A stretch of DNA of 64,000 nucleotides from Mycolicibacterium parafortuitum (lineage in GTDB: Bacteria; Actinomycetota; Actinomycetes; Mycobacteriales; Mycobacteriaceae). Every line of letters starts with the position of its first letter. Positions within the stretch are counted from its first letter, which is position 1. Below are positions 6,603 to 25,523 of this stretch, in pieces. The DNA is taken from positions 1,550,001 through 1,614,000 of the forward strand of contig NZ_AP022598.1 of the NCBI RefSeq assembly GCF_010725485.1. The letters run 5' to 3'. The notes under the pieces were generated by a model, which made no database searches, was not told where the DNA came from, and was given only the letters and a program-made list of their open reading frames with translations. Made by a program: the position numbers and the translations under genes.

Positions 6603-6613
6603 CCCGGTGCCCG

Positions 6614-6733: not shown

Positions 6734-6782
6734 GCGTCGCCACCGATCGTGTGTGGACGACATCGACCGTCCACACACTCCT

Positions 6783-7730: not shown

Positions 7731-7746
7731 CGTGGTCGATTCTCCG

Positions 7747-9177: not shown

Positions 9178-9213
9178 GATTACTCCTGTCTGACCACATG
9201 GCGGTTGCCGGGC

Positions 9214-9729: not shown

Positions 9730-9776
9730 CCGCTGTACCTAACTGCGTGGGTGACATCACATAGCTTGGATGAATA

Positions 9777-9816
9777 GGCATACTATTGCAAGAGCTATGC
9801 CGAAATACGTATTCGG
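9777..9816. promoter_or_regulatory. Putative GntR operators between gntK and gntR
   Basis: Within the 122-bp divergent region, GGCATA (9777-9782) is repeated inverted as TATGCC (9797-9802). A perfect 10-bp palindrome AATACGTATT (9804-9813) follows, flanked by CCGA and CGG. The stretch is clearly more AT-rich than its surroundings. These are plausible binding sites for the adjacent regulator; the exact operator cannot be fixed from one locus. Confidence 0.45.
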
Positions 9817-9851
9817 TAATTCGCAAGTAGGCGATCTGGCATGATTTATCC

Positions 9852-10562: not shown

Positions 10563-10580
10563 CCCACCAGCCACGGATGT

Positions 10581-11654: not shown

Positions 11655-11751
11655 GCCGGCCCTCCAATCGTGTCCCGCCGGAAACATACATTCTCCGATG
11701 AGGCAACGTCTACTCTCGCATCGTCGGAGGACGCCGTATGCCGGGCGGTCT

Positions 11752-13302
11752 CTAGGCCCCCGCCCCGTAGCGGATCAGGTCGGCGGCCTTCTCGCCGATC
11801 ATGATGGTGGCGGCGTTGGTGTTGACCGACACGACCCGGGGCATCACCGAGGCGTCCGCGACCCGTAGCCCGTCAAGTCCGTGCACCCGCAGTTCGGGGT
11901 CCACCACCGCCGCCGATCCCGAACCCATCATGCAGGTGCCCACCGGGTGGAAGTAGGTGGCCGTGGCGGTAGACAGGAAGGACCGCAACGCCTTCGGATC
12001 GCGCGCGTCGGGCCCGGGCAGCACCTCCCGCGCACGCCACGGAGCGAACGGCTCAGTGGCCGCGATCTCGCGGGCCACCCCGATGCCCTCGACCATCCGG
12101 CGCAGGTCGGCTTCCGCCCCGAGGTAGTTCGGGTCGATCAGCGGTGGCGTCCGCGGGTCCGGTCCCGCAAGGCGGATCGAGCCGCGCGACTCCGGAACCA
12201 TCACGGCAACGCCGAACGTGAAGCCGTTCGCCGGGGCCTCCAGGTGCGGCGGGATGAACGGCAGGTGGATGAACATCACCTGCATGTCGGGGCCCGCGAG
12301 CGACGGGTCGCTGCGCCACGCCATCGACGTCTCGGCGTGGTTGTTCTGGCCGACCGGAAGCGGTTGTGCTGCTTCGTAGACCACCCCGCACACCGGGTGG
12401 TCGTGCAGGTTGCGTCCGACGCCGGGCAGGTCGTGGAGCACCTCGATGCCGGCGGCTTCGAGTTCGGCGGCAGGGCCGACCCCGGACAACAGCAGCAGCC
12501 GCGGCGAGTCCACCGCACCCGCACTGACGATCACCTCGGCGCCGGCGTATGCCGAAACGGCCCCGCCCTGATGATCGAATTCCACTCCGGTGCAGCGCAT
12601 CCCGTCGATCAGGAGGCGACGGGCACGCGCACCGGTCAGGACCGTCAGGTTGGGCCTGCCGGCACGTACCGGGTGCAGATACGCCCGTGCGGTGCTCTGC
12701 CGGGTGCCCTCGGAGATCGACAGGTCGTGCCAGCCCGCCCCCTCGGCGCAGGCACCGTTGAAGTCGGCGGTGAGCGGGAAGCCCGCCGCGGCGGCCCCCC
12801 GGAGGAAGACCTCGGACAGCGGGTTCGCGACGTCGGGACTGGCGGGCGCGGGTCGCATCGGGCCGTCCGCGCCGCGGAAGCGGGGATCGCCGCCCTCGAC
12901 CGTCTCCATGCGCTTGAAGTACGGCAGCACCGACTCGTAGTCCCAACCGGAACAATTCCAGCTGTCGAAGTCGTTCGGGTGCCCGCGCAGGAAGACCATC
13001 GCGTTGATGCTGCTGCTTCCGCCGAGGGTGTGCCCCCTCGGCCAGTCGTGCCGCAGCCCGGAGGTGCCCGGTTGGGGAATCGTGTTGTAGGCGTAGTCGA
13101 CCTCGGTGCCCCACAGTGCCGGCCACGCGGGGGGTGCTCCGATCTCCGGGCGGGTGTCCTCGGGACCGGATTCCAACAGCAGCACGGTCGTGTCCGGGTT
13201 CTCGGACAACCGGGCCGCAAGTACGCATCCCGCGGATCCCGCGCCGACGATGATGTAGTCGTGGTGCAGCGTCCCGTCCTGGCGGGTCGTCTCGGTGGTC
13301 AT
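11752..13302 (-). CDS. GMC-family FAD oxidoreductase (choline-dehydrogenase type)
   Basis: 516 residues. FAD binding is shown by VGAGSAGCVLAARLSENP followed by VLLLESG, GMC signature 1 by HTLGGSSSINAMVFLRGHP, and signature 2 by GAVDSPRLLLLSGVGP. The catalytic pair is present: His at about 452 (YFHPVGTCMMG) and Asn at about 496 (VNTNAATIM), the same 44-residue spacing as in choline oxidase. It oxidises a primary or secondary alcohol, not necessarily choline. The P450 gene is 49 bp upstream on the same strand, suggesting that an alcohol made by hydroxylation is oxidised next. Confidence 0.92.
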   Translation of the reverse strand: MTTETTRQDGTLHHDYIIVGAGSAGCVLAARLSENPDTTVLLLESGPEDTRPEIGAPPAWPALWGTEVDYAYNTIPQPGTSGLRHDWPRGHTLGGSSSINAMVFLRGHPNDFDSWNCSGWDYESVLPYFKRMETVEGGDPRFRGADGPMRPAPASPDVANPLSEVFLRGAAAAGFPLTADFNGACAEGAGWHDLSISEGTRQSTARAYLHPVRAGRPNLTVLTGARARRLLIDGMRCTGVEFDHQGGAVSAYAGAEVIVSAGAVDSPRLLLLSGVGPAAELEAAGIEVLHDLPGVGRNLHDHPVCGVVYEAAQPLPVGQNNHAETSMAWRSDPSLAGPDMQVMFIHLPFIPPHLEAPANGFTFGVAVMVPESRGSIRLAGPDPRTPPLIDPNYLGAEADLRRMVEGIGVAREIAATEPFAPWRAREVLPGPDARDPKALRSFLSTATATYFHPVGTCMMGSGSAAVVDPELRVHGLDGLRVADASVMPRVVSVNTNAATIMIGEKAADLIRYGAGA

Positions 13303-13351
13303 GACACTCTCTTTCTGGGGTTCTGAGAATTCGGTCGATGGAGCGGTGTTG

Positions 13352-14566
13352 CTAGCCGGCCCCGGACCGGCAGGGTCGGCGGCCGCCGATGGAGATCGGC
13401 AGGCTCAGCAGACCGCGGATCAGGGTGCTCGACCGGTACTGCAGCGGTTCGTCCTCGATGAGCTCCAGATGCTGGAACCGCGAGAGCAGTCCGTCGAGCG
13501 CGATCTCGGCTTCCATCCGGGCCAGTGGTGCGCCGATGCAGTGGTGAATGCCGTGACCGAACGCGAGATGACGGTTGTCGCCCCGAAAGACGTTGAAACT
13601 GCCGGCGTCATGGAACTGCCGCTCGTCGCGGTTGGCGCCCAGCAGCGCGATCAATACCAGTTCGCCGGCCGGGATCTCGACGTCGTCGACGCAGACCGGT
13701 TCGTCGGTGTAGCGGACGGTGGCGGTGTTGAGTGGGCTCTCGAAGCGCAGGGCTTCCTCGATGGCGGCGGGCAGCAGCGAGCGGTCCGCACGCAACGCCG
13801 CCATCTGCGCCGGATTGCGCAGCAGCGCCAGCACGCCGTTGGCGATCAGGTTCACCGTGGTCTCGTAGCCCGCGACGATCAGCAGGAACGCCGTCCCCAG
13901 CAGCTCCTCCTCGGACAATCGGTCACCGTCGTCGCGGAGGTGGACGAGATTGCCCAGCACATCCTGAGCCGGCTCGGTGCGCTTGGCGGCGACGATCGTC
14001 TGCAGAAGTTGCGCGAGTTCGATCCGCGCGTGATCCACCTCGTCCGAGAGGTTGGAACCGAGGATCGGTATCACCAGCGACGAGAACCGGGTGCGCAGTT
14101 CTGGTGGAACACCCAGTAATTCGCCGATCACCCGGATCGGCAGCGGCAGCGCCAGCGACTGCATCAGATCGACGCGCCCCGGTGCCTGGCGGCTCATCGT
14201 GGTGAGCAGGTCGTCGGCGATGTCGACGATGGCCGGGCGTAACCCGCGCACCGATCGCGCCGTGAACGCCGCGGTGATGAGTCGGCGTAACCGCGTGTGA
14301 TCGGGCGGATCGCGAAACAGCATGTTGTCGCCCAGCACCGTCCCGATGGTGGTGGTGTTTCCCGGCGGGAACAGGCTGCTGGCGGTCGGGCCGTGCTTCT
14401 TCAGGCGGGGATCGGCGAGCAGTTCTCGGGCTTCGGCATAGCGGGTGACGATCCAGACGTCCACGCCGCCCCAGGCCTGCGCGCGGTGCACCGCGCCGCG
14501 GCGGCTCAGGTCGGCGTACACCGCGTGCGGGTTCTGAAAGAACGAATCGTCCAGTGTCACGGCCAT
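13352..14566 (-). CDS. Cytochrome P450
   Basis: 404 residues, normal length for a soluble bacterial P450. All core motifs are present: I-helix LLIVAGYETTVN, K-helix E-x-x-R in EEALRFESP, and the heme loop FGHGIHHCIGAPLARME with the cysteine thiolate. It is a monooxygenase depending on ferredoxin and reductase partners encoded elsewhere. The ATG at 14566 (MAVTLDD) was chosen because earlier in-frame codons up to 14629 show no family similarity and cross the divergent promoter. It faces the flavin monooxygenase gene across a 160-bp region with a palindrome, and it probably forms an operon with the GMC oxidoreductase. Confidence 0.93.
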   Translation of the reverse strand: MAVTLDDSFFQNPHAVYADLSRRGAVHRAQAWGGVDVWIVTRYAEARELLADPRLKKHGPTASSLFPPGNTTTIGTVLGDNMLFRDPPDHTRLRRLITAAFTARSVRGLRPAIVDIADDLLTTMSRQAPGRVDLMQSLALPLPIRVIGELLGVPPELRTRFSSLVIPILGSNLSDEVDHARIELAQLLQTIVAAKRTEPAQDVLGNLVHLRDDGDRLSEEELLGTAFLLIVAGYETTVNLIANGVLALLRNPAQMAALRADRSLLPAAIEEALRFESPLNTATVRYTDEPVCVDDVEIPAGELVLIALLGANRDERQFHDAGSFNVFRGDNRHLAFGHGIHHCIGAPLARMEAEIALDGLLSRFQHLELIEDEPLQYRSSTLIRGLLSLPISIGGRRPCRSGAG

Positions 14567-14662
14567 GCTGCCAGCGTGGCGACGCGAAGGCGTCCTGCCC
14601 AGGCCGGAGTTTTCCTGGTAACCGCACACCTACGGTGCGCCGATCCGAACCCCCGGCCAGTT

Positions 14663-14692
14663 CTTTGACAGCTGTCAGAATCTTGGTAGCGT
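14663..14692 (+). promoter_or_regulatory. Promoter and palindromic operator of the flavin monooxygenase gene
   Basis: TTGACA at 14665-14670, a 16-bp spacer and TAGCGT at 14687-14692 form a candidate promoter. A perfect 12-bp palindrome TGACAGCTGTCA (14666-14677) overlaps the -35 box, with partly matching flanks (TTC and GAA). It lies between the divergent P450 and monooxygenase genes. The EthR-like TetR encoded immediately downstream of the monooxygenase is the natural candidate to bind it. Confidence 0.5.
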
Positions 14693-14726
14693 GCCCGGTG
14701 GCGGAGCTCACAGAACGGTAGACACC

Positions 14727-16100
14727 ATGTCCACATCACCCACGGCTGCGATCATCGGCGCCGGTATCAGCGGATTGACCACCGGCAAGAATCTTGCCGA
14801 CGCCGGCATCGACTACGACTGCTTCGAGTCGTCGGACCGGATCGGCGGAAACTGGGCGTTCCGCAATCCGAACGGGCACTCCAGCGCCTACCGGTCGCTG
14901 CACATCGACACCTCGCGCGACTGCCTGTCGTTCCGCGACTTCCCGATGCGGTCCGACCTGCCCGACTACCCGCACCACTCTCAGATCAAGGACTACCTCG
15001 ACGAGTACGCCGAGGCCTTCGGGCTGCTGGAGCGCATTCAGTTCCGTAACGGTGTCGAGCATGCGCGGCGTCTGCCGCAGGGCGGCTGGGAACTCGACAC
15101 CCAGGATGGGCAGACCCGCCGCTACGACGTCCTGGTCGTCGCGAACGGCCATCACTGGGATCCGCGCACGCCCGATTTCCCGGGGGAGTTCACCGGCGAG
15201 AGCATCCACGCCCACGAATACATCGACCCCACCGAACCACTGGATTTGCGCGGGAAGCGCATCGTCGTCGTCGGCATCGGCAACTCGGCCGCCGACCTCG
15301 TCTCCGAACTGTCCCAGAAGTCTTGGCGCAACACCGTTTACCTGTCCACCCGGTCCGGGGCGTGGGTCGTGCCCAAGTACGTCTTCGGGATGACGGCCGA
15401 CAAGATCGCGCACTCCCTGCCGGTGATCCCGCTGGCGTGGCAGCGCCGGGCGATGCAGCCGTTCGCCCGGTTGATGTTCGGCGATCCGCAGCGGTACGGG
15501 CTGCCGAAACCCAACCACCGTTTCCTGGAGGCGCATCCCACGCAGTCCGCCGAACTGCTCATGCGGTTGGGGTCCGGTGACGCGACCGCGAAGCCGAATA
15601 TCGAACGCCTGGACGGCCGTTCGGTGGTCTTCGTGGACGGGTCGTCGGTGGAGGCCGACGTGATCATCTACGCGACGGGATACAACATCACGTTCCCGTT
15701 CTTCGACCGCAGCTTCCTCGAGGCCCCTGACAACCGGCTGCCGTTGTACAAGCGGATCCTCAAGCCGGGCATCGACGACCTGCTCTTCATCGGTTTCGCC
15801 CAGGCGCTGCCCACACTGTTCCCGTTCGTCGAATGTCAGGCCCGGTTGGCCGCGGCGTATCTCGCAGGCACGTACCGGCCTCCGTCGGAGGCCGAGATGC
15901 GTCGCACGATCGCCGCTGACGAGCGAAAGTACATCGGGCATTTCGTCGACAAGCCGCGTCACACCCAGCAGGTGGACTACTGGGACTACGAACGCAACAT
16001 GCGCAAACGCGAACTGCCGGCCGGTCGCCGCCGCGTCGAGAAGTACGGACCGGTGCCACTGGCGGGCCGGGCGACGCGCGAGGCGGCCGGTGCCGCCTGA
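14727..16100 (+). CDS. Class B flavin-containing monooxygenase
   Basis: 457 residues. The FAD motif IIGAGISGL is at about residues 9-17, then GGNWAFRNPNGHSSAYRSLH, typical of FMOs. The fingerprint F-x-G-x(3)-H-x(3)-Y is present as FTGESIHAHEY near residue 155, and the NADPH motif VGIGNSAADLVSEL near 190. The final position is Y and not the W-P of Baeyer-Villiger enzymes, so an N- or S-oxidising or hydroxylating FMO is more likely. ATG 14727 follows the promoter at 14663-14692 and starts right at the Rossmann fold. The TetR gene downstream overlaps by 11 nt. Confidence 0.9.
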   Translation: MSTSPTAAIIGAGISGLTTGKNLADAGIDYDCFESSDRIGGNWAFRNPNGHSSAYRSLHIDTSRDCLSFRDFPMRSDLPDYPHHSQIKDYLDEYAEAFGLLERIQFRNGVEHARRLPQGGWELDTQDGQTRRYDVLVVANGHHWDPRTPDFPGEFTGESIHAHEYIDPTEPLDLRGKRIVVVGIGNSAADLVSELSQKSWRNTVYLSTRSGAWVVPKYVFGMTADKIAHSLPVIPLAWQRRAMQPFARLMFGDPQRYGLPKPNHRFLEAHPTQSAELLMRLGSGDATAKPNIERLDGRSVVFVDGSSVEADVIIYATGYNITFPFFDRSFLEAPDNRLPLYKRILKPGIDDLLFIGFAQALPTLFPFVECQARLAAAYLAGTYRPPSEAEMRRTIAADERKYIGHFVDKPRHTQQVDYWDYERNMRKRELPAGRRRVEKYGPVPLAGRATREAAGAA

Positions 16101-16719
16101 ATCCACGCAGGGTTCCCGGCGCAACGCGACCCGGCCCCAACCGCGTGGTGACGAGCGAAGGCAGCGGCTCCTCGAGGCGTTCGAGGAGCAACTGCAGACC
16201 CAGTCGTTGGCCGACATCAGCGTCGCCGAGGTGGCACGGTCGGCGGGGCTGAAACGGCCGGCGTTCTATTTCTACTTCGCAGGCAAGCACGAGGTCGTCA
16301 CCGAACTGCTCAGCGGGATCTTTCAGGACGACGTGTTCACCATCGGCGGCTTCCTGGCCGGCGGCGGCGACCCCCGCGTTTCCGTGGTCGACGCCATGAC
16401 AAGGACTTTCGAGTCATGGCACACCCACCGCACGCTGTTCCGGGCGATGCTCGACGCCCGCGATTCCGACGCGGAGGCCAAAGCGATCTGGGACCAGTGG
16501 CTGCAGCGCTACGAGGAGTTCGTCAGTGACTTCATCGCCGAGCAGCCCACCATCGACATCCCCGATCCGGCGGCCCTCGCCCACGCGTTGATCTCGATGA
16601 ACGAGCGGGTCCTGGACCGCCACATCCGTTCCGGCGCCGGTGTCGAAGCCGCAGGCCCGCTTCTGGCGGCGGTCATCCACGTCTGGAACACGGCACTGTT
16701 CGGAGGGGACGCGCAATGA
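16090..16719 (+). CDS. TetR-family regulator, EthR-like
   Basis: 209 residues. After a basic leader, LADISVAEVARSAGLKRPAF plus YFYFAGKHEVV forms the helix-turn-helix and closely resembles EthR of M. tuberculosis. Conserved distal blocks ALISMNERVLD and VIHVWNTALFG also match the EthR ligand-domain pattern. EthR represses the Baeyer-Villiger monooxygenase gene ethA; here the likely target is the upstream flavin monooxygenase and perhaps the divergent P450 operon, with which it shares the palindrome at 14666-14677. The GTG start overlaps the monooxygenase stop by 11 nt. Unlike ethA-ethR, the two genes are co-directional. Confidence 0.85.
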   Translation: MPPESTQGSRRNATRPQPRGDERRQRLLEAFEEQLQTQSLADISVAEVARSAGLKRPAFYFYFAGKHEVVTELLSGIFQDDVFTIGGFLAGGGDPRVSVVDAMTRTFESWHTHRTLFRAMLDARDSDAEAKAIWDQWLQRYEEFVSDFIAEQPTIDIPDPAALAHALISMNERVLDRHIRSGAGVEAAGPLLAAVIHVWNTALFGGDAQ

Positions 16720-16735
16720 CGGTGATGCGACCGGT

Positions 16736-17449
16736 CTACAGCGCCCAGGCCTGTGGCGGCTCGCTGAGGCGCGCCTTGGCCTGAGCGCCCATCGGGTCCA
16801 GGATCTCGATCTCGCCGGCCTCCAGACCGTCGAGCGCCAGCCCGACCAGCTCGGCCGGATCCATCACCGCGCCGTCCGGGAACTCGATGCCGTGCCGCTC
16901 GGCGAAGTCGTACAGCGTCTGCGTGCCGACCAGGCCGGGCACCAGCGCGGCGACCTGGGTGCCTTGAGCCGCGAGCTCGAGCCGCACGCCGTTGGTCAGA
17001 CCCCACTCGGCCGACTTCGCGGCCGCGTAGGCGGTGTTTCCGTCGACGGTCGTCCACGCCGCCGCGGACAGCACGTTGAGGATCGCGCCCCCGCCGTTGC
17101 GCGCGAGGATCGGTGCGAACGCGCGGATCATCGCCAGCGTTCCGTAGTAGTTCGAGTCCATCGTGGACCGGATCCCTGCCATGTCTCCGGTGACGAGGTT
17201 GCCGCCTGCGGTGTCGGCGGCGTTGTTGATCAGCAGGTCCACGTCCCCGGCCAATACGGCGGCCGCGTCGACCGATGCCTGGTCGGTGATATCGAGGCCG
17301 ATCGGCTCGGCGCCGGGAATGTTCACCAGTTCGGGACGGCGGGCACTGGCGTACACCTTGGCGCCGCGGGCGAGCAGTTCGACGACGAACTGATGGCCGA
17401 TCCCTCGGTTCGATCCGGTCACCAGCGCGGTGGCTCCGTGCAAATTCAT
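16736..17449 (-). CDS. Short-chain dehydrogenase/reductase
   Basis: 237 residues. The cofactor loop TGSNRGIGHQF is at about residues 10-20, NNAADTAG marks the central strand, and the catalytic Ser (NVLSAAAW) and Tyr-x-x-x-Lys (YAAAK) are present. ATG 17449 with GAAGAGG upstream was chosen; a longer frame reaching 17842 runs over the divergent TetR gene and carries no extra domain. The substrate is unknown. It is divergent from a TetR gene with two copies of a perfect palindrome in the promoter between them, so repression by that TetR is likely. Confidence 0.88.
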   Translation of the reverse strand: MNLHGATALVTGSNRGIGHQFVVELLARGAKVYASARRPELVNIPGAEPIGLDITDQASVDAAAVLAGDVDLLINNAADTAGGNLVTGDMAGIRSTMDSNYYGTLAMIRAFAPILARNGGGAILNVLSAAAWTTVDGNTAYAAAKSAEWGLTNGVRLELAAQGTQVAALVPGLVGTQTLYDFAERHGIEFPDGAVMDPAELVGLALDGLEAGEIEILDPMGAQAKARLSEPPQAWAL

Positions 17450-17481
17450 CTTGTGCCTCTTCGGTATTCGACAGCCGGCTG

Positions 17482-17552
17482 AACATGACCGATCGGTCAT
17501 GTTGACAGGACCAGGCTCGCATAACATGACCGATCGGTCAACTTGGTATCCT
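17482..17552. promoter_or_regulatory. Tandem TetR operators TGACCGATCGGTCA
   Basis: A perfect 22-bp palindrome spans 17482-17503 with core TGACCGATCGGTCA (17486-17499). The same 14-bp core recurs at 17527-17540; the centres are 41 bp apart, about four helical turns. A -10-like TATCCT (17547-17552) lies 6 nt before the GTG at 17559, so the TetR mRNA would be leaderless and the second operator would cover the -35 region. The first copy lies 33 bp from the SDR start and would control that gene. Confidence 0.75.
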
Positions 17553-17558
17553 CGGCCG

Positions 17559-18158
17559 GTGACTTCGACCGACCGGCCGACTCGCGCCGACGCGACCCGC
17601 AACCGTGCGTTGCTGCTGGCCGCCGCCGAGGCAGAGTTCGCCGAACGTGGCCCGTCGGCGTCGGTGGCCGACATCGCCCGCCGCGCCGGGGTCGCGAAAG
17701 GCACGCTGTTCCGGCACTTTCCGACCAAAGAGGATCTGATCGCCGCGATCGTCTGCGGGCATATCGCCGTCCTCGCCGATGCGGCCCGGCAGTTGGCGGA
17801 TGCCCCCGACCCTGGTGCGGCGCTGCTGGAGTTCCTGACCATCGCCGCCGATCAGCGTCAACGCCACGATCTGACGTTTCTGCAATCGGCCAGCGCCGGA
17901 GACCCGAGGGTCGCCGAGGCCGGCGATGCGCTGCACACGAACCTGGAAACCCTGGTCGAGCGGGCCCGGCAGGCCGGGGCGATCCGCGCCGACGTCACCG
18001 AGGCCGACATCTTCCTGATGATGTGCGCACCGATCCACATCGTCGAAAACCTCGCGGCGCCAAGCCCGCTGCTGTGGCAGCGCTACCTGGCGATCATCTT
18101 CGACGGCCTCCGGCCCGACGGGGCGCACCCGCTACCGCAACCGGCGCCCGTCATCTGA
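17559..18158 (+). CDS. TetR-family repressor
   Basis: 199 residues. The N-terminal helix-turn-helix is clear: RALLLAAAEAEFAERGPSAS, then VADIARRAGVAKGTLFRHFP. The C-terminal ligand domain has DLTFLQSASAGDP and LVERARQAGAIRADVTEADI. Start GTG 17559 directly follows the promoter and excludes in-frame upstream codons that run through the palindromic operators. The paired operators between this gene and the divergent SDR indicate autoregulation and control of the SDR. It is convergent with the GntP-type gene, 10 bp away, with no visible terminator. Confidence 0.9.
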   Translation: MTSTDRPTRADATRNRALLLAAAEAEFAERGPSASVADIARRAGVAKGTLFRHFPTKEDLIAAIVCGHIAVLADAARQLADAPDPGAALLEFLTIAADQRQRHDLTFLQSASAGDPRVAEAGDALHTNLETLVERARQAGAIRADVTEADIFLMMCAPIHIVENLAAPSPLLWQRYLAIIFDGLRPDGAHPLPQPAPVI

Positions 18159-18168
18159 GCGACTCAGG

Positions 18169-19569
18169 TCAGACGGCGACCAGATAGACCACCGACGCGA
18201 GCGCGAACGACATGAAGCCGATCGCCGTCGCGATGACGGTCCACGTCTTCAACGTGGTGATGGTGTCGAACCCGCAGAAGCGCCCGATCAGCCAGAAGCC
18301 GGAGTCGTTGACATGGGAGAAGGTGATCGAGCCCGCGGCGATGGCGACGACGACCGCGGCGAGCGCAACAGCGCCGAGGTCCATCTCCATGACGGCGGGC
18401 GCCATGATCGAACCCGCGGTCGTGGCCGCAACCGTGGCCGAACCCTGCGCGACCCGGAACGCGATCGCGATCAGGAAGCCCGCGAGGATGACCGGCAATC
18501 CGAGGGCGTCCAAGCCGTCGGCAAGGGTCTTGCCGATCCCGGTCTCGGTCAGGATCCTGCCGAAGGCGCCACCGGCGCCGGTGATCAGGATGATCGAGCA
18601 GACCGGCGCCAACGCGTCGTCGACGAGGTTCTCCAGCAATCCGCCGATCGGCTCCCCGCGGCGCCGGCGCGGCAGCACGTAGAGCAATACCATCGCGAGC
18701 AGGACGCTGATCAGCAGCGCAATCGAGGTCGTCCCGATCAGGCGCGAAAGCTGGTAGGCGATATTGTCTTTCGTGACGGCGCCGTCGGCTTCGAGGGTGG
18801 AGAAGATGGTGTTGAAGAAGATCAGCACCAGCGGAAGCAGCAGGACGAAGATCACGGTCCAGAAGCCGGGCCGCTCGTCTTCGGGGTAGTCCTTCGGTTC
18901 ACCCAGCAGGTTCGGCACCGGCATGTTGGGGTAGCGCTTGGCGATGATCAGGCTGAGCCGGTAGCCGGCGAGGTACCAGGTCGGCAGGCCCACGAGTAGC
19001 GCGACGATGACCACCATGCCGACGTCGGCGCCCATCACCGTCGCCGCCGCCGTCGGTCCGGGGTGCGGCGGGGTCAGCGCGTGCATCATCAGGAACGCGC
19101 CGATGGACGGCAGCACGTACAACATGAACGACCCGCCGAGCCGCCTGGCCACCGTGTAGATGATGGGCAGCATCACGATGAAGCCGGCGTCGAGGAAGAT
19201 CGGGAACGCGTAGAACAGCGAGGCCACGGCGAGCGCCAGCGGCGCCCTCTTCTCGCCGAACCTGCTCAGCATCTTGTCGGCGAGAACCTGTGCGCCGCCG
19301 GTCATCTCGACTATTCGTCCGAGGACGGTGCCGAACCCGACCAGTAGTGCCACGGTGCCGACGGTGTTGCTGAAGCCCGCGATGACGACGTTGATGACGT
19401 CGCCCATCCCGATGCCGGCCGCCAGACCGGTCAGCACACTCACCACGATCAGGGAGAAGAACGCGTGCAGCCTGACCTTGATGATCAGGAAGAGCAGGAC
19501 CACGATCGCGACGAGCGCGATGATCACGAGCAGGGCGGCAGGCCGCTCCGCGATGGCTATCTCGTCCAT
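18169..19569 (-). CDS. GntP-family acid-sugar permease (second copy)
   Basis: 466 residues with GntP features: FYAFPIFLDAGFIVMLPI, MMHALTPPHPGPTAAA, ILITGAGGAFGRILTETGIG and SHVNDSGFWLIGRFCGFD. It is a paralogue of the gluconate symporter at 7747-9177 but its neighbours differ. It is the third gene of a minus-strand operon after a TIM-barrel enzyme and a 3-hydroxyacyl-CoA-dehydrogenase-like enzyme, so its substrate is probably an acid sugar other than gluconate, with four to six carbons. A GAAGGG Shine-Dalgarno 5 nt before ATG 19569 supports the start. Confidence 0.9.
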   Translation of the reverse strand: MDEIAIAERPAALLVIIALVAIVVLLFLIIKVRLHAFFSLIVVSVLTGLAAGIGMGDVINVVIAGFSNTVGTVALLVGFGTVLGRIVEMTGGAQVLADKMLSRFGEKRAPLALAVASLFYAFPIFLDAGFIVMLPIIYTVARRLGGSFMLYVLPSIGAFLMMHALTPPHPGPTAAATVMGADVGMVVIVALLVGLPTWYLAGYRLSLIIAKRYPNMPVPNLLGEPKDYPEDERPGFWTVIFVLLLPLVLIFFNTIFSTLEADGAVTKDNIAYQLSRLIGTTSIALLISVLLAMVLLYVLPRRRRGEPIGGLLENLVDDALAPVCSIILITGAGGAFGRILTETGIGKTLADGLDALGLPVILAGFLIAIAFRVAQGSATVAATTAGSIMAPAVMEMDLGAVALAAVVVAIAAGSITFSHVNDSGFWLIGRFCGFDTITTLKTWTVIATAIGFMSFALASVVYLVAV

Positions 19570-19637
19570 GGGGACCCTTCAGGAGTGGTGACGGGAAACG
19601 GCCGTCAACGCCGACGACGGCCGGGTGGAACGGTCGG

Positions 19638-20600
19638 TCAGGACCCCTTCGGCGCAGGTCCGAGTTCGCGCAGCAGCTCACCCATGCGGGAGTACGCCTT
19701 GTTGCGGTAGGCGATCAGCTCGGCTTTGGTCGCGTCGTCGAAATCGCCGGTCCACCCCTTGCCGTTCTTGGTGCCGTGCCGGCCGGCGTCGACGTTCTCG
19801 GTGAGCAGCCGCGGAGTCGCCATGCGCTCACCGAACTCGTTCTCCAGCGTGCGGAAACCCTTGACGTACACGTCGAGACCGGCCTGGTCGGCGATCGCGA
19901 ACGGGCCGAAGAAGCCGAGCCGGAATCCGAAGGTGGTGCGGACGATCGTGTCCACGTCCTCCTTGGTGGCCACACCCTGCTCGACGATCAGCGTCGCCTC
20001 CTTGAGCAGGGCGTACTGCAAGCGGTTGAGCGCCATCCCGGGGGTGTCGGCGACCTGGGCGCCTTCGCGCCCGGTACGCACCAGAAGATCCTTGACCGAG
20101 TCGATGACTTCCTGCGTGGTCGCCTCACCGGCGACGAGCTCGACGCCGGGAATGAACGGCGCGGGGTTGGAGAAGTGCACGGTGAGGAACCGCTCGGGAT
20201 TGGTCACCGCTTCGACGAGCACCTTGACCGGGATCGTGGACGTATTGGTGCCGATGATCGTGTCGGGCCGGGCGTTCGCGCAGACCCGTGCCAGCACCTC
20301 CTTTTTCACGTCGGGATCCTCGAACACCGCCTCCATCACGAAGTCGACGTCGGCGACGGCCTCGTCGAGGCTTTCGCCCGCGGTCAGGTTGCCCATGATG
20401 GTGTCGGCGCTGCCCTCGGGGAACAGCCCCTGCTCCTCGAACTCCCGGGCCTCCTTGTCCAGGCGCTTGAGCGCCTCGCGGGTGGCATCGGCGTTGACGT
20501 CGGCGATCTGGACCTTGAATCCGTTCAGGGCGAACACCTGGGCGATGCCGCCGCCCATGTAACCGGCGCCGACGACTGTGACGGTGTTGATCTTGCGCAT
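19638..20600 (-). CDS. 3-hydroxyacyl-CoA-dehydrogenase-like enzyme, predicted acid-sugar 3-dehydrogenase
   Basis: 320 residues. The Rossmann motif VVGAGYMGGGIAQVF is at 9-23. The catalytic set of the family is present: Ser121 (TNTSTIP), His142 (VHFSNP) and Glu154 (GVELVAG). The annotation by homology would be 3-hydroxybutyryl-CoA dehydrogenase, but those are near 285 residues, and this length is closer to L-gulonate 3-dehydrogenase (about 319), a member of the same superfamily. With an acid-sugar permease downstream and a TIM-barrel enzyme 21 bp upstream, oxidation of a 3-hydroxyl of an aldonate is the better hypothesis. GAAGGAC precedes the ATG. Plain fatty-acid metabolism remains possible. 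Confidence 0.75.
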   Translation of the reverse strand: MRKINTVTVVGAGYMGGGIAQVFALNGFKVQIADVNADATREALKRLDKEAREFEEQGLFPEGSADTIMGNLTAGESLDEAVADVDFVMEAVFEDPDVKKEVLARVCANARPDTIIGTNTSTIPVKVLVEAVTNPERFLTVHFSNPAPFIPGVELVAGEATTQEVIDSVKDLLVRTGREGAQVADTPGMALNRLQYALLKEATLIVEQGVATKEDVDTIVRTTFGFRLGFFGPFAIADQAGLDVYVKGFRTLENEFGERMATPRLLTENVDAGRHGTKNGKGWTGDFDDATKAELIAYRNKAYSRMGELLRELGPAPKGS

Positions 20601-20621
20601 GAGATGTCCTTCAGGTTGGGA

Positions 20622-21542
20622 TCAGGCGAGGGCGGAGGTGAGAACTTGCTGGATGTACTCCCGGTTCTCGGCGCATACGCCCAACGAATCGGAGCCGTAA
20701 TGCTCGCAGCAGAACGGCCCGGTGTAGCCGAGTTCGAGTGCGAGACGGATGATCTGGCGATAGTTGATGTAGCCGTACTTCAACGGCAGCGGCGCCGAGC
20801 TGTACGCGCCGGTCGCCGGGTCGAAGTCCCGTGAGTAGTTCTTGATGTGCCAGAAGTTCGAGTAGGGAAGCACTTTGGCGAACATCTCGGTGAAGTGAGG
20901 CATCGGCCGATGTAGCCGGATCAGGTTGCCCAGGTCGGGGTTCAGTCCGACCGCGTCGTGGTCGACGTCCTTGATGAACGCGACCGCATCGTCCGGGGTG
21001 CCGATGTAGGTGTCCTCGTACATCTCCAAGCTGAGCTGGATCCCGTTGGCGCGGGCGTGATCACCGAGTTCACGGATACGGTCGACGGCCAGATCGCGCA
21101 GCGCCGGGTCGTCGACGTGGCCCACGGCCAACCAGAACCAGATCTGCTCGCTCTGCTGCGGGGTGATGGCTTGCATGAACCCGGTGTTCACGATCGTGGC
21201 ACCGAACGTCGGGGCCAGGTCGATCAGGCGGTGCGCGTCGGCGAGATTCTTCTCCCCGTTCTCGACGTCGACGACCGAGTTGCGGGTCATCGAGATCGAC
21301 GAGATCGCCAGGCCTTCGTCGCCGAGGACGGTGCGGAACTCCTCGACGCGGCCGTCGGACAGTGCGGCGAGCGGCACCCAAGCATCGGTGGGGTCGATGT
21401 AGTCGAAACCCAGTTCCCGGACCTGGCGCAGCTGCTTGGCCCACACCGTGGAGGGGGCGTCCTTGATGTGCCCGCCGTCGGGAGCTCTGTTGCCGAACCC
21501 GAGCATGTTGGCCGCGATCGGCCAGTTGTGAGCGGAGTACAT
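20622..21542 (-). CDS. Xylose-isomerase-like TIM-barrel enzyme, predicted 3-oxo-acid-sugar decarboxylase or isomerase
   Basis: 306 residues of the sugar phosphate isomerase/epimerase (AP endonuclease 2) fold. The metal-binding tetrad is recognisable: Glu173 (SLEMYED), Asp203 (NPDLGNL), His232 (FWHIKNY) and Glu280 (CCEHYG). Members include isomerases, epimerases, dehydratases and, in apionate catabolism, a 3-oxo-isoapionate decarboxylase. ATG 21542 was chosen because GGAGG lies 7 nt upstream; an in-frame ATG at 21590 falls inside the predicted GntR operator. First gene of the operon with the dehydrogenase and permease. The reaction is inferred from context. Confidence 0.78.
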   Translation of the reverse strand: MYSAHNWPIAANMLGFGNRAPDGGHIKDAPSTVWAKQLRQVRELGFDYIDPTDAWVPLAALSDGRVEEFRTVLGDEGLAISSISMTRNSVVDVENGEKNLADAHRLIDLAPTFGATIVNTGFMQAITPQQSEQIWFWLAVGHVDDPALRDLAVDRIRELGDHARANGIQLSLEMYEDTYIGTPDDAVAFIKDVDHDAVGLNPDLGNLIRLHRPMPHFTEMFAKVLPYSNFWHIKNYSRDFDPATGAYSSAPLPLKYGYINYRQIIRLALELGYTGPFCCEHYGSDSLGVCAENREYIQQVLTSALA

Positions 21543-21581
21543 CGCCGAACCTCCAGTGGTTTGAGTCACAAAACCCTCCCT

Positions 21582-21595
21582 AAATCCCATAGGAT
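21582..21595. promoter_or_regulatory. GntR operator copy 1 (AAATCCCATAGGAT)
   Basis: AAATCCCATAGGAT matches the copy at 22426-22439 at 13 of 14 positions. It lies 40 bp upstream of the TIM-barrel gene start and about 90 bp before the GntR gene, in the divergent promoter. The 1-bp deviation breaks the perfect symmetry seen in the second copy. Confidence 0.65.
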
Positions 21596-21685
21596 ATAGG
21601 GGTACGGCCTACACGTGTCAACGGCGGGTAAGATTCGCTTCTCGAATTGGAGGGGGCGTCGTCGTGGCGTGCGGAAAGGCCTGGG

Positions 21686-22414
21686 ATGGAAGCCGGCGAG
21701 GACTCGAAACCGATACGCAGCACGCTCGTCGACCAGGTCTACGAGCGGCTGATGGAGTTACTGCTCGACGGCACCCTGAAGTCCGGAGACCCGGTCAGCA
21801 TCGACGGGACCGCGCGCTACCTGGGGGTATCGCCGACGCCCGTCCGTGAGGCGCTGGCCCGGCTGGAATCCACCGGCAATGTCGTCCGGGTGGCCATGCG
21901 GGGGTACCGCGTGCCGGAGATGCCTGATGCCAAGGAGATCTCCGACATCATGGACGCCCGGCTGCTCATCGAACCCCGGATGGCCGAGCTCGCGTGCGCC
22001 CGGGGCGGCGGCGAGTGGTTGGACGGCCTGGAAAACGCGATTGACGAGCAGGAACAGGCGCCGCATACGTCGGATGCGGCGGCGATCAGGAAGTACCACC
22101 GCGCCGACGAGCAGTTCCACCGGCTCATCGCCGAACACGCCGACAACGCCGCGCTGCTGCGCGCCTATGACGCGCTGGGTGGCCACGGACAGCGATTCCG
22201 CCTCTTCATCGGCAAGGGCGTCCAGGACTCCGATTACGCGATCGCCGAGCACCGCGAGTTGCTCGACGCCTTCCGCCGGGGCTACGGCCCGGACGTGTAC
22301 CGCATCATGCACACCCACATCACCGGGGTGAAGGAGCGCGCGCTGGCCGAGCATGCCGAGGCGATGCGCACCGGTAGTTGGGGTTCGGCGCACGGCAACG
22401 GCCTCCACCGGTGA
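21686..22414 (+). CDS. GntR/FadR-family regulator of the acid-sugar genes
   Basis: 242 residues. The winged helix is TLVDQVYERLMELLLDGTLK, then VSIDGTARYLGVSPTPVREALARLESTGNVV; the FCD domain follows with MDARLLIEPRMAELAC, YHRADEQFHRLI and a late AEHRELLDAF. It is divergent from the TIM-barrel/dehydrogenase/permease operon and directly upstream of the kinase/isomerase operon, and matching palindromes occur before both. It probably represses both operons until an acid-sugar intermediate binds. ATG 21686 was preferred; an in-frame TTG at 21647 is an alternative. Confidence 0.88.
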   Translation: MEAGEDSKPIRSTLVDQVYERLMELLLDGTLKSGDPVSIDGTARYLGVSPTPVREALARLESTGNVVRVAMRGYRVPEMPDAKEISDIMDARLLIEPRMAELACARGGGEWLDGLENAIDEQEQAPHTSDAAAIRKYHRADEQFHRLIAEHADNAALLRAYDALGGHGQRFRLFIGKGVQDSDYAIAEHRELLDAFRRGYGPDVYRIMHTHITGVKERALAEHAEAMRTGSWGSAHGNGLHR

Positions 22415-22425
22415 CGTAACCGGTC

Positions 22426-22440
22426 AAATCCTATAGGATT
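22426..22440. promoter_or_regulatory. GntR operator copy 2 (AATCCTATAGGATT palindrome)
   Basis: AATCCTATAGGATT at 22427-22440 is a perfect 14-bp palindrome, in the 107-bp gap between the GntR stop and the kinase start. Together with the near-identical copy at 21582-21595 it defines the likely recognition sequence of this GntR, and it places the kinase operon under separate control although it is co-directional with gntR. Confidence 0.7.
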
Positions 22441-22521
22441 GGTGCACGCTTGCGGCGTGTGCGCAGTGCCGTGCTGCGGTCACACAGCCCTTTCCGAAGG
22501 CCCATTCCTAAGGACGGAACA

Positions 22522-24237
22522 ATGACGTACCTCCTGAACTCGCCCGACGAGTTCGCCGATGAGGCGGTCCGTGGCCTCGTCGCCGCGCATCCCGACCTGC
22601 TCACCGAGGTCGCCGGCGGTGTCGTGCGCTCGACCGAAACGCCGAAGGGCCAGCCCGCGCTGGTGATCGGCGGAGGTTCCGGGCACTATCCGGCCTTCGC
22701 CGGATGGGTCGGTCCGGGTATGGGCCACGGCGCTCCGTGCGGCAACATCTTCTCCTCGCCGTCAGCTGCCGAGGTCTACTCGGTGGTGCGCAACGCCGAG
22801 AACGGCGGCGGCGTCATTCTGGGATTCGGCAACTACGCCGGCGACGTCCTGCACTTCGGTCTGGCGGCGGAGAAACTGCGTCATGAGGGCATCGACGTCC
22901 GCATCGTGACCGTCAGCGACGACATCGCCTCCAACAGCCCGGAGAACCATCGTGACCGGCGCGGCGTCGCCGGCGACCTGCCCGTCTTCAAGATCGCCGG
23001 CGCCGCGATCGAAGCCGGCGCGGATCTCGACGAGGCCGAGCGGGTGGCCTGGAAGGCCAACGATGCGACCCGGTCGTTCGGTTTGGCCTTCGAAGGATGC
23101 ACCCTGCCCGGCGCAGCCGAACCGCTCTTCCACGTCGAAAAGGGTTGGATGGGCGTGGGTCTCGGCATCCACGGTGAGCCCGGCGTCCGCGACAACCGGC
23201 TCGGCACCGCCGCCGAGGTCGCCGACCTGCTGTTCGACGAAGTCATCGCCGAAGAACCGCCGCGCGGCGAGAACGGTTATGACGGCCGGGTAGCCGTCAT
23301 CCTGAACGGTCTCGGCACCGTCAAGTACGAAGAGCTGTTCGTCGTCTATGGGCGCATCGCGGAACGCCTTGCGCAGCAAGGGCTCACCGCGGTGCGCCCC
23401 GAGGTCGGCGAGTTCGTCACCAGCCTCGACATGGCCGGTGTGTCGTTGACGCTCGTGTTCCTCGACGACGAACTGGAAAGGCTGTGGACAGCGCCGGTGG
23501 AGACCCCGGCCTACCGCCGCGGCGCCATGCCCGCGGTCGAGCGGGCTCCGCGCACCGAGATCTGGGATGCCGCCGAGGCCGAGATCCCGCAGGCGGACGA
23601 AGACTCGCGGGCCTGCGCCCGCAATATCGTTGCGGTGCTTGAGACCTTCCAGCAGGTGTGCGCCGACAACGAAGCCGAACTGGGCCGTATCGACGCGGTG
23701 GCCGGCGACGGCGACCACGGCCAGGGCATGACGTTCGGTTCCCGTGGCGCGGTCCAGGCGGCCCGCGCCGCCGCCGACCGGGAGGCCGGTGCCAGGACCA
23801 CGCTGCTGCTGGCGGGGCACGCATGGGCCGACGCCGCGGGAGGAACCTCGGGTGCCCTGTGGGGTGCGGCGCTGACCAGCGCCGGCGGTGTCTTCTCCGA
23901 CACCGGCGGAGCCGACGAGAAGACGGTCGTGGACGCGGTACGCGCCGGCATCGATGCCGTTCTGCGCCTCGGTGGCGCCCAGCCCGGCGACAAGACGATG
24001 GTCGACGCCGCCGTGCCGTTCCGCGATGCGCTGGCCGAGGCCTTCGACACCCAGGCAGGGCCGGCCATCACCAGCGCCGCTGAGGTGGCGCGCGAAGCGG
24101 CCGAGAAAACCGCGGACATCTCGGCGCGATTGGGCCGGGCGCGGGTACTCGGTGAGAAGAGTCTCGGGACTCCCGACCCCGGCGCGGTGTCGTTCGCGCT
24201 GTTGATGAAGGCGTTGGGCGAGCACCTGACCCGATGA
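22522..24237 (+). CDS. lerK: ATP-dependent dihydroxyacetone/erythrulose kinase (fused DhaK-DhaL)
   Basis: 571 residues, a single-chain kinase. The DhaK half has GGGSGHYPAFAGWVGPGM at 50-67, GFGNYAGDVLHFG at 101-113 and the substrate-binding His217 in GLGIHGEPGVRDNR. The DhaL ATP domain has DAVAGDGDHGQGMTFG near 394-409 and AGGTSGALWGAAL near 440. Such enzymes phosphorylate dihydroxyacetone; M. smegmatis uses members as L- or D-erythrulose kinases. The RpiB-like and TIM-like genes directly downstream repeat the reported erythrulose pathway set (LerK, LerI, DerI), so L-erythrulose is the favoured substrate. The symbol is by inference. ATG 22522 has AAGGACGG upstream. Confidence 0.85.
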   Translation: MTYLLNSPDEFADEAVRGLVAAHPDLLTEVAGGVVRSTETPKGQPALVIGGGSGHYPAFAGWVGPGMGHGAPCGNIFSSPSAAEVYSVVRNAENGGGVILGFGNYAGDVLHFGLAAEKLRHEGIDVRIVTVSDDIASNSPENHRDRRGVAGDLPVFKIAGAAIEAGADLDEAERVAWKANDATRSFGLAFEGCTLPGAAEPLFHVEKGWMGVGLGIHGEPGVRDNRLGTAAEVADLLFDEVIAEEPPRGENGYDGRVAVILNGLGTVKYEELFVVYGRIAERLAQQGLTAVRPEVGEFVTSLDMAGVSLTLVFLDDELERLWTAPVETPAYRRGAMPAVERAPRTEIWDAAEAEIPQADEDSRACARNIVAVLETFQQVCADNEAELGRIDAVAGDGDHGQGMTFGSRGAVQAARAAADREAGARTTLLLAGHAWADAAGGTSGALWGAALTSAGGVFSDTGGADEKTVVDAVRAGIDAVLRLGGAQPGDKTMVDAAVPFRDALAEAFDTQAGPAITSAAEVAREAAEKTADISARLGRARVLGEKSLGTPDPGAVSFALLMKALGEHLTR

Positions 24238-24262
24238 ACACGAATTCGAGAAGGAGATGACC

Positions 24263-24721
24263 ATGGCGTTGAAGATCGTCATCGGCGGCGACAACGCCGG
24301 CTTCAACTACAAGGAAGCGCTGCGCGAGGACTTGGAGTCCGACGAGCGGGTGGCCAGCGTCGAGGATGTCGGCGTGATGGCCGCCGAAGACACCACGTCG
24401 TATCCGAACGTGGCCGTCGCGGCCGCCGAGAAGATCGCCCGCGGCGAGGCGGACCGGGCCCTGCTGATCTGCGGCACCGGGCTGGGCGTCGCGATCGCGG
24501 CCAACAAGGTCAAGGGGATTCGCGCCGTCACCGCGCACGACGTGTACTCGGTGCAGCGGTCCGTGCTGTCGAACAACGCGCAGGTGCTGTGCATGGGCGA
24601 ACGCGTCGTCGGCTTGGAATTGGCGCGCGCCCTGGTGAAGGAGTGGCTCGGCCTCGAGTTCGATCCGCAGTCCTCCTCGGCCGCGAAGGTCGACGACATC
24701 TGCGCGTACGAGGGTGACTGA
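24263..24721 (+). CDS. derI: RpiB-like isomerase, predicted D-erythrulose 4-phosphate isomerase
   Basis: 152 residues, RpiB/LacA/LacB family: IVIGGDNAGFNYKEAL at 5-20, active-site Cys70 in LLICGTGLGVAIAANKVKG, and AHDVYSVQRSVLSNNAQ. The usual D-H-A-G of ribose-5-phosphate isomerase B is D-N-A-G here (Asn11 for His). Since that histidine helps open the furanose ring, its loss fits a tetrulose phosphate that cannot cyclise. It would convert D-erythrulose 4-phosphate to D-erythrose 4-phosphate. ATG 24263 has AAGGAG 6 nt upstream; the earlier ATG at 24257 abuts it. The stop overlaps the next gene by 8 nt. Confidence 0.83.
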   Translation: MALKIVIGGDNAGFNYKEALREDLESDERVASVEDVGVMAAEDTTSYPNVAVAAAEKIARGEADRALLICGTGLGVAIAANKVKGIRAVTAHDVYSVQRSVLSNNAQVLCMGERVVGLELARALVKEWLGLEFDPQSSSAAKVDDICAYEGD

Positions 24722-25523
24722 CGCCGGCGCGTTCGGGGCCGACCGGCTGTGGATCGGCACCAGCTGGAAGATGAACAAGGGCCTCGACGAGTCCCGTCGA
24801 TACATCCGCGGATTGCGCGACTACGTGCAGTCCACCCCGCTTCCGGGAGTCCAGCCGTTCATCATCCCGTCGTTCACCGCGGTGACGACCGTCCGCGAGG
24901 AACTGGGCGCCGATTCCCCGGTGCTGCTCGGGGTGCAGAACGCGCACTGGGAAGACGAAGGTGCCTGGACCGGTGAGGTTTCCGTCGCCCAGGCGAAGGA
25001 CGCCGGAGCCCAGCTGGTCGAGATCGGGCATTCCGAGCGACGTGAGCATTTCGGTGAAACCGTGGAGACCACCCGGCGCAAGGTGGCGGCCACACTGGCT
25101 CACGGCTTGATGCCGCTGCTGTGCATCGGCGAGAGCGCCGAGACGAAACAGGCCGGCGGGTCATCACGATTCATCCTGGACCAGGCGGCAGGCGCACTCG
25201 ACGGCCTCGCCGACGAACAGTTGCGGCGCGTGCTCATCGCCTACGAGCCGATCTGGGCGATCGGCGAGCACGGGCGGCCGGCCACCGTCGAGGAGCTACG
25301 CCGGCCGTTCGCCGACTTGGCCCGTGAATACGGCGGTCGCACAAGCGGATTGCTCTACGGCGGGTCGGTGAACCTGGACAATGCCCAGGAGCTGCTCGGA
25401 ATCGAGCATGTCAGCGGGTTGTTCATCGGTCGCGCCGCCTGGCAGCTGCCCGGTTACCTGCGGATCCTCGAGATCGCCGCCGCCCACGCGACCGTCACCG
25501 CGGCGGATCCCCACGCCAGCTGA
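24714..25523 (+). CDS. lerI: Triosephosphate-isomerase homologue, predicted L-erythrulose 1-phosphate isomerase
   Basis: 269 residues. Catalytic residues of the TIM family are in place: Lys19 (SWKMN), His106 (EIGHSERR) and Glu178 (AYEPIWAIGE), with the phosphate loop YGGSVNLDNA. The canonical G-N-W-K is T-S-W-K here, so Asn is replaced by Ser17, an unusual change in true triosephosphate isomerases. By analogy with the erythritol/threitol pathway of M. smegmatis, it should interconvert L-erythrulose 1-phosphate and D-erythrulose 4-phosphate. The housekeeping tpiA is expected beside gapA-pgk, not here. The GTG start overlaps the RpiB-like gene; the 3' end overlaps the convergent gene by 29 nt. 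Confidence 0.83.
   Translation: MTDAGAFGADRLWIGTSWKMNKGLDESRRYIRGLRDYVQSTPLPGVQPFIIPSFTAVTTVREELGADSPVLLGVQNAHWEDEGAWTGEVSVAQAKDAGAQLVEIGHSERREHFGETVETTRRKVAATLAHGLMPLLCIGESAETKQAGGSSRFILDQAAGALDGLADEQLRRVLIAYEPIWAIGEHGRPATVEELRRPFADLAREYGGRTSGLLYGGSVNLDNAQELLGIEHVSGLFIGRAAWQLPGYLRILEIAAAHATVTAADPHAS

Follow-up and report, generated by a model that had tools for sequence, protein, structure and literature searches.

L-Gulonate is oxidized by L-gulonate 3-dehydrogenase (lambda-crystallin) to 3-keto-L-gulonate, which is then decarboxylated to L-xylulose; four-carbon acid sugars are handled by pathways that include OtnT, OtnK, OtnI and LtnD, and the known fates of pentonates are the Weimberg and Dahms routes. 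In 2-deoxy-D-ribonate oxidation a pentonate is oxidized at C3 and its chain is cut by a beta-keto acid cleavage enzyme. A decarboxylating D-apionate pathway with ApnO, OiaC, LerK, LerI and DerI is said to have been described by Carter and colleagues in 2018. Here we compare these systems, and the tetritol catabolism of M. smegmatis, with a seven-gene locus in a 64,000-nucleotide stretch of the Mycolicibacterium parafortuitum genome (contig NZ_AP022598.1, positions 1,550,001 to 1,614,000; below, the window). Tetritol catabolism in M. smegmatis uses LerK (L-erythrulose 1-kinase), LerI and DerI (Huang et al. 2015, as quoted in passages of PMC10733421 and PMC12780249), and in the same passages these three enzymes convert L-erythrulose to D-erythrose 4-phosphate.

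Gene order and spacing divide the locus into two apparent operons with a GntR/FCD regulator gene between them: TIM barrel, HAD-type dehydrogenase and GntP permease on the minus strand, and GntR, kinase, RpiB and TIM on the plus strand. A preliminary description had given seven open reading frames in these families, and the open reading frame check and profile matches bear this out; it was also right that neither a lactonase nor a polyol dehydrogenase is among the seven genes. Likely starts of the TIM barrel (306 amino acids, as in PDB 5tnv), regulator and kinase genes have been refined. The features are as follows (window coordinates):

18169..19569, minus strand: GntP-family permease, 466 amino acids, third gene of its operon (TIGR00791, 354.5 bits against a cutoff of 292.75; PF02447)
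19638..20600, minus strand: HAD-type dehydrogenase, 320 amino acids (PF02737, 3HCDH_N, and PF00725, 3HCDH), with Ser121, His142, Glu154, Asn192 and the loop TFGFRLGFFGPF
20622..21542, minus strand: xylose isomerase-like TIM barrel, 306 amino acids from ATG 21542, open reading frame listed to 21590 (PF01261, AP_endonuc_2)
21584..21595, strand-neutral: putative operator 1, ATCCCATAGGAT, one mismatch to ATCCTATAGGAT, overlapping the -10 box of the TIM barrel operon promoter by 3 bp
21593..21621, minus strand: promoter-like site read from the sequence, TTGACA (21621-21616), 17 bp, TATATC (21598-21593)
21686..22414, plus strand: GntR/FCD transcription regulator, likely ATG 21686, open reading frame listed from 21647 (PF00392, PF07729)
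22428..22439, strand-neutral: putative operator 2, ATCCTATAGGAT, within the 14-bp palindrome AATCCTATAGGATT (22427-22440), upstream of the kinase operon
22522..24237, plus strand: fused DhaK-DhaL kinase, 571 amino acids from ATG 22522 (PRK14479 family, 748.3 bits against a cutoff of 492; Dak1 and Dak2)
24257..24721, plus strand: RpiB-like isomerase (LacAB_rpiB; TIGR02133, 218.9 against 168.2)
24714..25523, plus strand: TIM-like isomerase (TIM family; NF000722, triose-phosphate isomerase, 364.6 against 293)

We propose, and consider reasonably probable, that these two operons form one regulon for the import of an acid sugar, its 3-oxidation, decarboxylation to L-erythrulose and conversion to D-erythrose 4-phosphate. 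The GntP permease would import a small sugar acid, the HAD enzyme would oxidize its C3 hydroxyl with NAD+, the metal-dependent TIM barrel would take the 3-oxo acid through an enediolate to L-erythrulose and CO2, and kinase, TIM-like and RpiB-like enzymes would carry L-erythrulose to D-erythrose 4-phosphate in three steps. The proposal is built on what can be read from the sequence, namely the gene set, its conserved linkage, a palindrome common to both operons, and family and loop features. It resembles the L-gulonate route in HAD-fold 3-oxidation of an aldonate, loss of CO2 and formation of a ketose one carbon shorter, and differs from it in its five-carbon substrate, metal TIM-barrel decarboxylase and Dha-type kinase route. 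With 2-deoxy-D-ribonate oxidation it has the 3-oxidation of a pentonate in common, whereas there a beta-keto acid cleavage enzyme cuts the chain. An L-erythrulose 1-kinase and two isomerases leading to D-erythrose 4-phosphate are found in M. smegmatis tetritol catabolism as well, in the form given in the passages cited above; unlike that system, the window locus has no tetritol dehydrogenase or ABC transporter, and L-erythrulose is proposed to arise from an acid sugar.

The linkage of the genes was measured in the best 80 of 130 TIM-barrel loci, which were gathered via the TIM barrel and counted by tblastn over ~10 kb with score thresholds of our own choosing. The kinase is near the TIM barrel in 62 of these, the HAD gene in 54, RpiB in 53 and TIM in 51, the last count pooling window-like TIMs (41, with identities of at least 50%) and more distant ones (11 at 30-50%). 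Kinase, RpiB and TIM are all present in 43 of the 80, two of them in 15, one in 7 and none in 15, 7 of which are shortened loci; the 61 loci with full flanks divide as 35, 13, 5 and 8, respectively. Both halves stand back to back in 13 of the 14 mycobacterial loci (the other, L005, is cut off), with all seven genes in 11 of these 13. In a genus sample of 148 genomes, 46 have some kinase match and 11 have the TIM barrel, and in all 11 a Dha-type kinase lies at most 4 kb from it; within the sample, kinases at least 82% identical to that of the window are confined to 10 of these 11 genomes. In the remaining one (G028, locus L141) the cluster is diverged and rearranged, with TIM barrel (52%), HAD gene (54%), kinase (53%), TIM (35%) and GntR gene; an MFS-like gene is seen there by reading only, and GntP and RpiB were not seen in it. 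The seven-gene arrangement is no chance neighbourhood.

A palindrome ahead of each operon is a trait expected of a catabolic regulon under a GntR/FCD regulator, and the window has it. A search of the 6.04-Mb genome for ATCCTATAGGAT with up to one mismatch gives two sites, one ahead of each operon, while the reversed ATCCTATAGGAT pattern, used as a control, gives one; 100 shuffled windows gave a mean of 0.03 matches, and none had two. In 83 whole loci of relatives, 42 contain the exact core TCCTATAGGA, with 58 sites in all, and the nearest gene (starts extrapolated from tblastn) is the TIM barrel for 32 sites, the kinase for 17, GntR for 5, TIM and RpiB for 1 each, and no query gene for 2. Promoter regions could be parsed in 68 of 89 loci, 18 of them mycobacterial (L004, L006, L010 and L011 were unparsed, and two organisms are repeated, as L002 and L084 and as L008 and L090). 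The TTGACA box is at the same position in all 18 mycobacterial sequences, which are not all independent, and a looser core was found in 14 of these and in 30 of the 68 overall. One upstream alignment, made with a strict pattern, took in 6 of 21 mycobacterial sequences.

Since the operator is common to both, the two operons would serve one function, and they most likely form one regulon under the GntR encoded between them. The regulator is predicted to bind the palindrome and to repress both operons until substrate is present. Might the halves nevertheless be unrelated neighbours, an acyl-CoA or gluconate operon beside a tetritol operon? Relatives of the HAD enzyme are named 3-hydroxybutyryl-CoA dehydrogenase, and none of kinase, RpiB and TIM is near the TIM barrel in the 15 loci mentioned above; yet the palindrome is found at two genomic places only, the linkage is conserved in several genera, and most of the same genes recur in rearranged form in another mycobacterium (L141). 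We regard unrelated neighbours as the most improbable of the explanations considered here.

The HAD enzyme was identified in the preliminary description by Ser121, His142 and Glu154, and these residues are correct: an alignment of 17 sequences shows no variation at them or at Asn192, and the motifs around the four are present in all 54 relatives examined. The enzyme passes no NCBIfam cutoff. Its C-terminal domain alone scores best, and aligns without gaps, against 4om8 (named pyridine-carboxylate dehydrogenase), and the lambda-crystallins 3f3s and 3ado give an equal aligned length with this domain (letters not displayed). At the loop TFGFRLGFFGPF, three residues are missing from all five CoA enzymes displayed, and the same gap is seen in 3mog, 4kug, 4kue and one domain of 6ium. 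All 54 relatives have the loop motif, and none of the 54 has the basic, CoA-type KGK stretch. Within the genome (searched as one contig of 6,044,196 bases), KGK and the short loop occur together in the nearest CoA-type paralogue (L147, FadB2-like by reading), L149, a paralogue resembling lambda-crystallin, shows the long loop and NRLQ, and the alignments of three FadB-like paralogues end ahead of the loop. The window enzyme has the NRLQ and the longer R..GP loop of the C-terminal domain, as in small-carboxylate HADs, features that we ourselves take as markers of that class. A proline before G-V-E was tried as an acid-type marker and dropped; the CoA-type paralogue L147 has it too.

Against this stand the best whole-length sequence and fold matches of the enzyme, which are 3-hydroxybutyryl-CoA dehydrogenases, and the names of the listed relatives, nearly all of which are 3-hydroxyacyl- or 3-hydroxybutyryl-CoA dehydrogenase; P0207 (76% identical) is the sole one named L-gulonate 3-dehydrogenase among the 120 HAD relatives listed (the M. 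smegmatis relative, P0130, is 91% identical). Nor is the long loop exclusive: the last domain of 6ium aligns without a gap and 1zej, called a 3-hydroxyacyl-CoA dehydrogenase, has equal length, so the loop gives a leaning and no proof. Weighing these matches and loop exceptions against genomic context, loop and motifs, we disfavour a role in acyl-CoA metabolism. The enzyme resembles, with exceptions, the small-carboxylate type, and we propose that it is an NAD-dependent aldonate 3-dehydrogenase.

The TIM barrel is 92% identical to PDB 5tnv, an M. smegmatis protein solved as a magnesium complex under a title that gives no function, and its predicted model has a mean pLDDT (predicted local distance difference test) of 92.0. 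Among the loci of relatives, one named M. parafortuitum (L002) has a TIM barrel 99% identical to it. Glu189, Asp219, His248 and Glu296 (322-amino-acid numbering) are invariant in 28 sequences and, judged by their position, would be the metal site of the superfamily; the AP_endonuc_2 fold and this Glu/Asp/His/Glu set are both present. Names among the listed matches in the plasmid and protein collections allow no function to be assigned. By heuristic open reading frames, some of which are mis-split at the relatives' loci, the gene directly downstream is HAD in 29 cases, SDR in 12, kinase in 12, an opposite-strand gene in 10, GntP in 5, another gene in 4, PdxA in 2 and a D-2-hydroxyacid dehydrogenase in 1. 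Among the 80 loci, the nearby dehydrogenases are HAD alone in 40, HAD and SDR in 14, SDR alone in 11, PdxA alone in 7, PdxA and SDR in 2, and none in 6. Because HAD, SDR and PdxA families are exchanged around it, the TIM barrel is suggested to act on the product of the oxidation, and because decarboxylation turns a 3-oxo-pentonate into a tetrulose, it is assigned to that step. With moderate confidence, then, we regard it as a divalent-metal 3-oxo-acid decarboxylase.

Could the TIM barrel instead epimerize or isomerize the acid or ketose, with CO2 lost spontaneously or through the dehydrogenase and the rest of the pathway as proposed? Structure search cannot separate decarboxylase from isomerase here, and the solved relatives listed are isomerases, epimerases, dehydratases or unnamed, with ketose 3-epimerases, UlaE and IolE among the nearest folds and none titled decarboxylase. 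PdxA, which is able to decarboxylate alone, stands beside the TIM barrel in the proteobacteria Sinorhizobium and Paracoccus, so that the TIM barrel might be an epimerase or isomerase, and by general chemistry 3-oxo acids can lose CO2 unaided. On the other hand, no decarboxylation is known for the HAD family, and the TIM barrel stays as its dehydrogenase partner switches family; since the loci were gathered through the TIM barrel, its constancy follows from the sampling and only the change of partner is informative. We consider an epimerase or isomerase unlikely, although it is the strongest of the competitors.

The PdxA-containing loci, L082 (S. meliloti pSymB, 3761-9927) and L083 (Paracoccus, 8112-18915), have GntR, PdxA, TctCBA and a TIM barrel 49% identical to that of the window, and this arrangement is a proteobacterial version of the cluster. 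L083 also has a Dha-type kinase, and its cluster is followed by genes for a SAF-domain protein, a 3-oxo-tetronate kinase and an aldolase.

The kinase operon had been likened in the preliminary description to the LerK-LerI-DerI set, and the likeness is upheld by a Dha-type kinase, an RpiB homologue and a TIM distinct from the housekeeping one in one operon. In the scheme for that set, D-erythrulose 4-phosphate is a direct substrate of DerI, which makes LerI a requirement of the L isomer. Only two TIMs were found in the genome, the window's and one at G000:C1:4749248-4749997. A second Dha-type kinase and RpiB pair (G000:C1:1426614-1428802; L138 about 8597-10803), ~121 kb before the window and 55% and 71% identical to the window's, is thus without a TIM of its own; its neighbours are a GolD/DthD-family dehydrogenase (394.6 bits against a cutoff of 286) and an ABC transporter of the ribose type, and the looser core was not seen in its 19-kb region. 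That second locus fits a D-threitol route and is likely a D-threitol/erythritol locus. That this second pair lacks a TIM points to L-erythrulose as the substrate of the window operon. Ten genomes were compared in this respect: all six with a window-type cluster have the window-type TIM, the three that carry the other kinase type alone lack it, and in the tenth (G028) the 35% TIM stands beside the TIM barrel; three further genomes with a window-type cluster (G009, G027 and G052) lie outside this comparison. We propose that the window kinase is a LerK-like L-erythrulose 1-kinase.

Other observations weigh against the pathway as we propose it. The window RpiB scores 153.3 bits against a cutoff of 240 with the rhizobial DerI model, and kinase, TIM and RpiB pass the cutoffs of general models only. 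Of the 83 loci, 41 lack the exact core TCCTATAGGA. In Promicromonospora, kinase and HAD genes are present without a TIM at five of seven loci, a pattern that would fit D-erythrulose and a D-pentonate (D-xylonate, for example). Locus L061 (3402-14225) and similar Promicromonospora loci, in which an ABC transporter, a GH39 glycosidase and LacI accompany the TIM barrel, kinase, RpiB and HAD genes and a TIM-like isomerase is missing, may be an oligosaccharide-fed, D-series variant.

The decarboxylating D-apionate pathway is alike in running from acid sugar to 3-oxo acid, L-erythrulose and D-erythrose 4-phosphate with a xylose isomerase-like TIM barrel at the decarboxylation; it is unlike in that the window has no ApnO, a HAD-family dehydrogenase in its place, and another TIM barrel subfamily, which lies near the OiaC-like one in some genomes. 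The labels ApnO-like and OiaC-like as used here follow the names attributed to Carter and colleagues (2018) and the gene context; they correspond to no database label. ApnO-like proteins have PGDH_C and KARI_N domains and solved relatives 5t57, 3c24 and ketol-acid reductoisomerases. They occur in 8 of the 80 loci, and an OiaC-like TIM barrel in 9, those eight included; both kinds of TIM barrel are in the same loci, and they are 22.6% identical to each other. PMC11747546 names a D-apionate oxidoisomerase among the genes of a D-apiose cluster.

If the window dehydrogenase were that D-apionate oxidoisomerase and its TIM barrel OiaC, followed by LerK, LerI and DerI, the lower pathway would be identical, and both TIM barrels do belong to one Pfam family. 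However, a search of the genome with an ApnO-like query (PGDH_C / KARI_N; no OiaC-like query was used) gave a best match of 31% over 85 residues with E 3.5e-4, so that no ApnO-like protein was found; in Brachybacterium, Nesterenkonia, Erwinia and Pantoea the ApnO-like protein goes with the other TIM barrel, and 0 of the 58 operator-core sites are nearest to an ApnO- or OiaC-like gene. Furthermore, C3 of D-apionate is tertiary and therefore, on chemical grounds, beyond a simple 3-dehydrogenase. We judge the D-apionate reading very unlikely and reject it as the route in this genome, the ApnO-like protein being absent and its partner TIM barrel of a different kind. Thus, of the pathway in the preliminary description, a single route from an imported acid sugar to D-erythrose 4-phosphate is retained, favoured by the common operator and the dehydrogenase features, and the tie to D-apionate is given up.

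The ApnO-like/OiaC-like pair lies near a window-type TIM barrel in the eight actinobacterial loci L017, L022, L026, L028, L032, L035, L038 and L044, and L026, L028 and L035 have one kinase, RpiB and TIM set each besides the pair. In Erwinia and Pantoea plasmids the two genes of the pair are adjacent and near kinase, TIM and RpiB genes. Two upper branches thus appear to share a single lower module. In Paracoccus seriniphilus (L092, 7045-8828), the gene for an OiaC-like TIM barrel (33%) overlaps another gene of the sugar isomerase/epimerase family next to a TRAP transporter, and the stretch gave no ApnO-like match.

Four-carbon acid sugar pathways have in common with the locus a GntP permease, a dehydrogenase and an AP_endonuc_2-type TIM barrel, and one could suppose that a tetronate is oxidized at C3, the 3-oxo-tetronate yields dihydroxyacetone and CO2, and the kinase makes dihydroxyacetone phosphate. 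Relatives of the permease are tetronate importers, in the Brachybacterium loci L025, L026 and L028 genes for a DUF1537-type kinase and an LtnD-like dehydrogenase come after the orthologous GntP gene, and the 3-oxo-tetronate kinase gene lies nearby in Paracoccus L083. But RpiB and a second TIM would then be needless, yet they are in 53 and 51 of the 80 loci, and the DUF1537-type kinase and LtnD-like protein do not reach the model cutoffs for D-threonate kinase and L-threonate dehydrogenase. By Pfam search the seven genes include no DUF1537-type kinase (OtnK/DtnK); in place of this and of an aldolase they have a Dha-type kinase and two isomerases. A four-carbon substrate therefore seems rather improbable to us.

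What acid would enter the proposed L-erythrulose pathway? By chemical reasoning, 3-oxidation and decarboxylation of an L-pentonate yields L-erythrulose, and an L-pentonate is most likely the substrate, although this is the weakest part of the proposal. HAD-family members oxidize L-configured 3-hydroxyls (3-hydroxyacyl-CoA, L-gulonate), and if this preference is kept, L-arabinonate or L-ribonate is perhaps meant among the L-pentonates; a branched 2-C-(hydroxymethyl)tetronate (isoapionate) is possible. FMN-dependent dehydrogenases are present in 13 and D-2-hydroxyacid dehydrogenases in 12 of the 80 loci, and one may speculate that they invert C2 of such acids. Genes for GH39 and GH3 glycoside hydrolases lie near some relatives and fit plant pentose polymers. 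Taken together these genes hint at pentose-derived aldonates and C2 inversion, and do not fix the substrate.

Elsewhere in the window, an SDR-like open reading frame, seen by reading only, runs from ~17440 down to 16736 on the minus strand, past a TetR-like one. The Rfam scan of the window found nothing but a thiamine pyrophosphate riboswitch at 47871-47982 (plus strand; 55.1 bits, barely over the gathering score of 54.3), outside the seven-gene locus, and the tRNA search found none.

The window is predicted to encode a new form of acid-sugar-to-erythrulose catabolism, with what may be a new decarboxylase subfamily. In its full form, which we put forward tentatively and with rather less assurance than the regulon itself, this would be a new aldonate pathway in which L-arabinonate, L-ribonate or a branched isomer of these C5 acids undergoes 3-oxidation by a HAD enzyme and decarboxylation to L-erythrulose by a new metal TIM-barrel subfamily, with HAD, SDR and PdxA enzymes exchanged at the oxidation, converging with the D-apionate branch on one erythrulose module. 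Open-literature searches, judged from their listings, returned no description of a HAD and TIM-barrel route to erythrulose or of the operator. The conserved palindrome offers an easy handle for testing the regulon and for tracing it across other Actinobacteria. If the proposal is true, a protein family whose solved structure (PDB 5tnv) has no function in its title would gain one, as would genes that for the most part carry the annotation 3-hydroxyacyl- or 3-hydroxybutyryl-CoA dehydrogenase, and pentonates would have a further fate, outside the Weimberg and Dahms routes, that ends in D-erythrose 4-phosphate.

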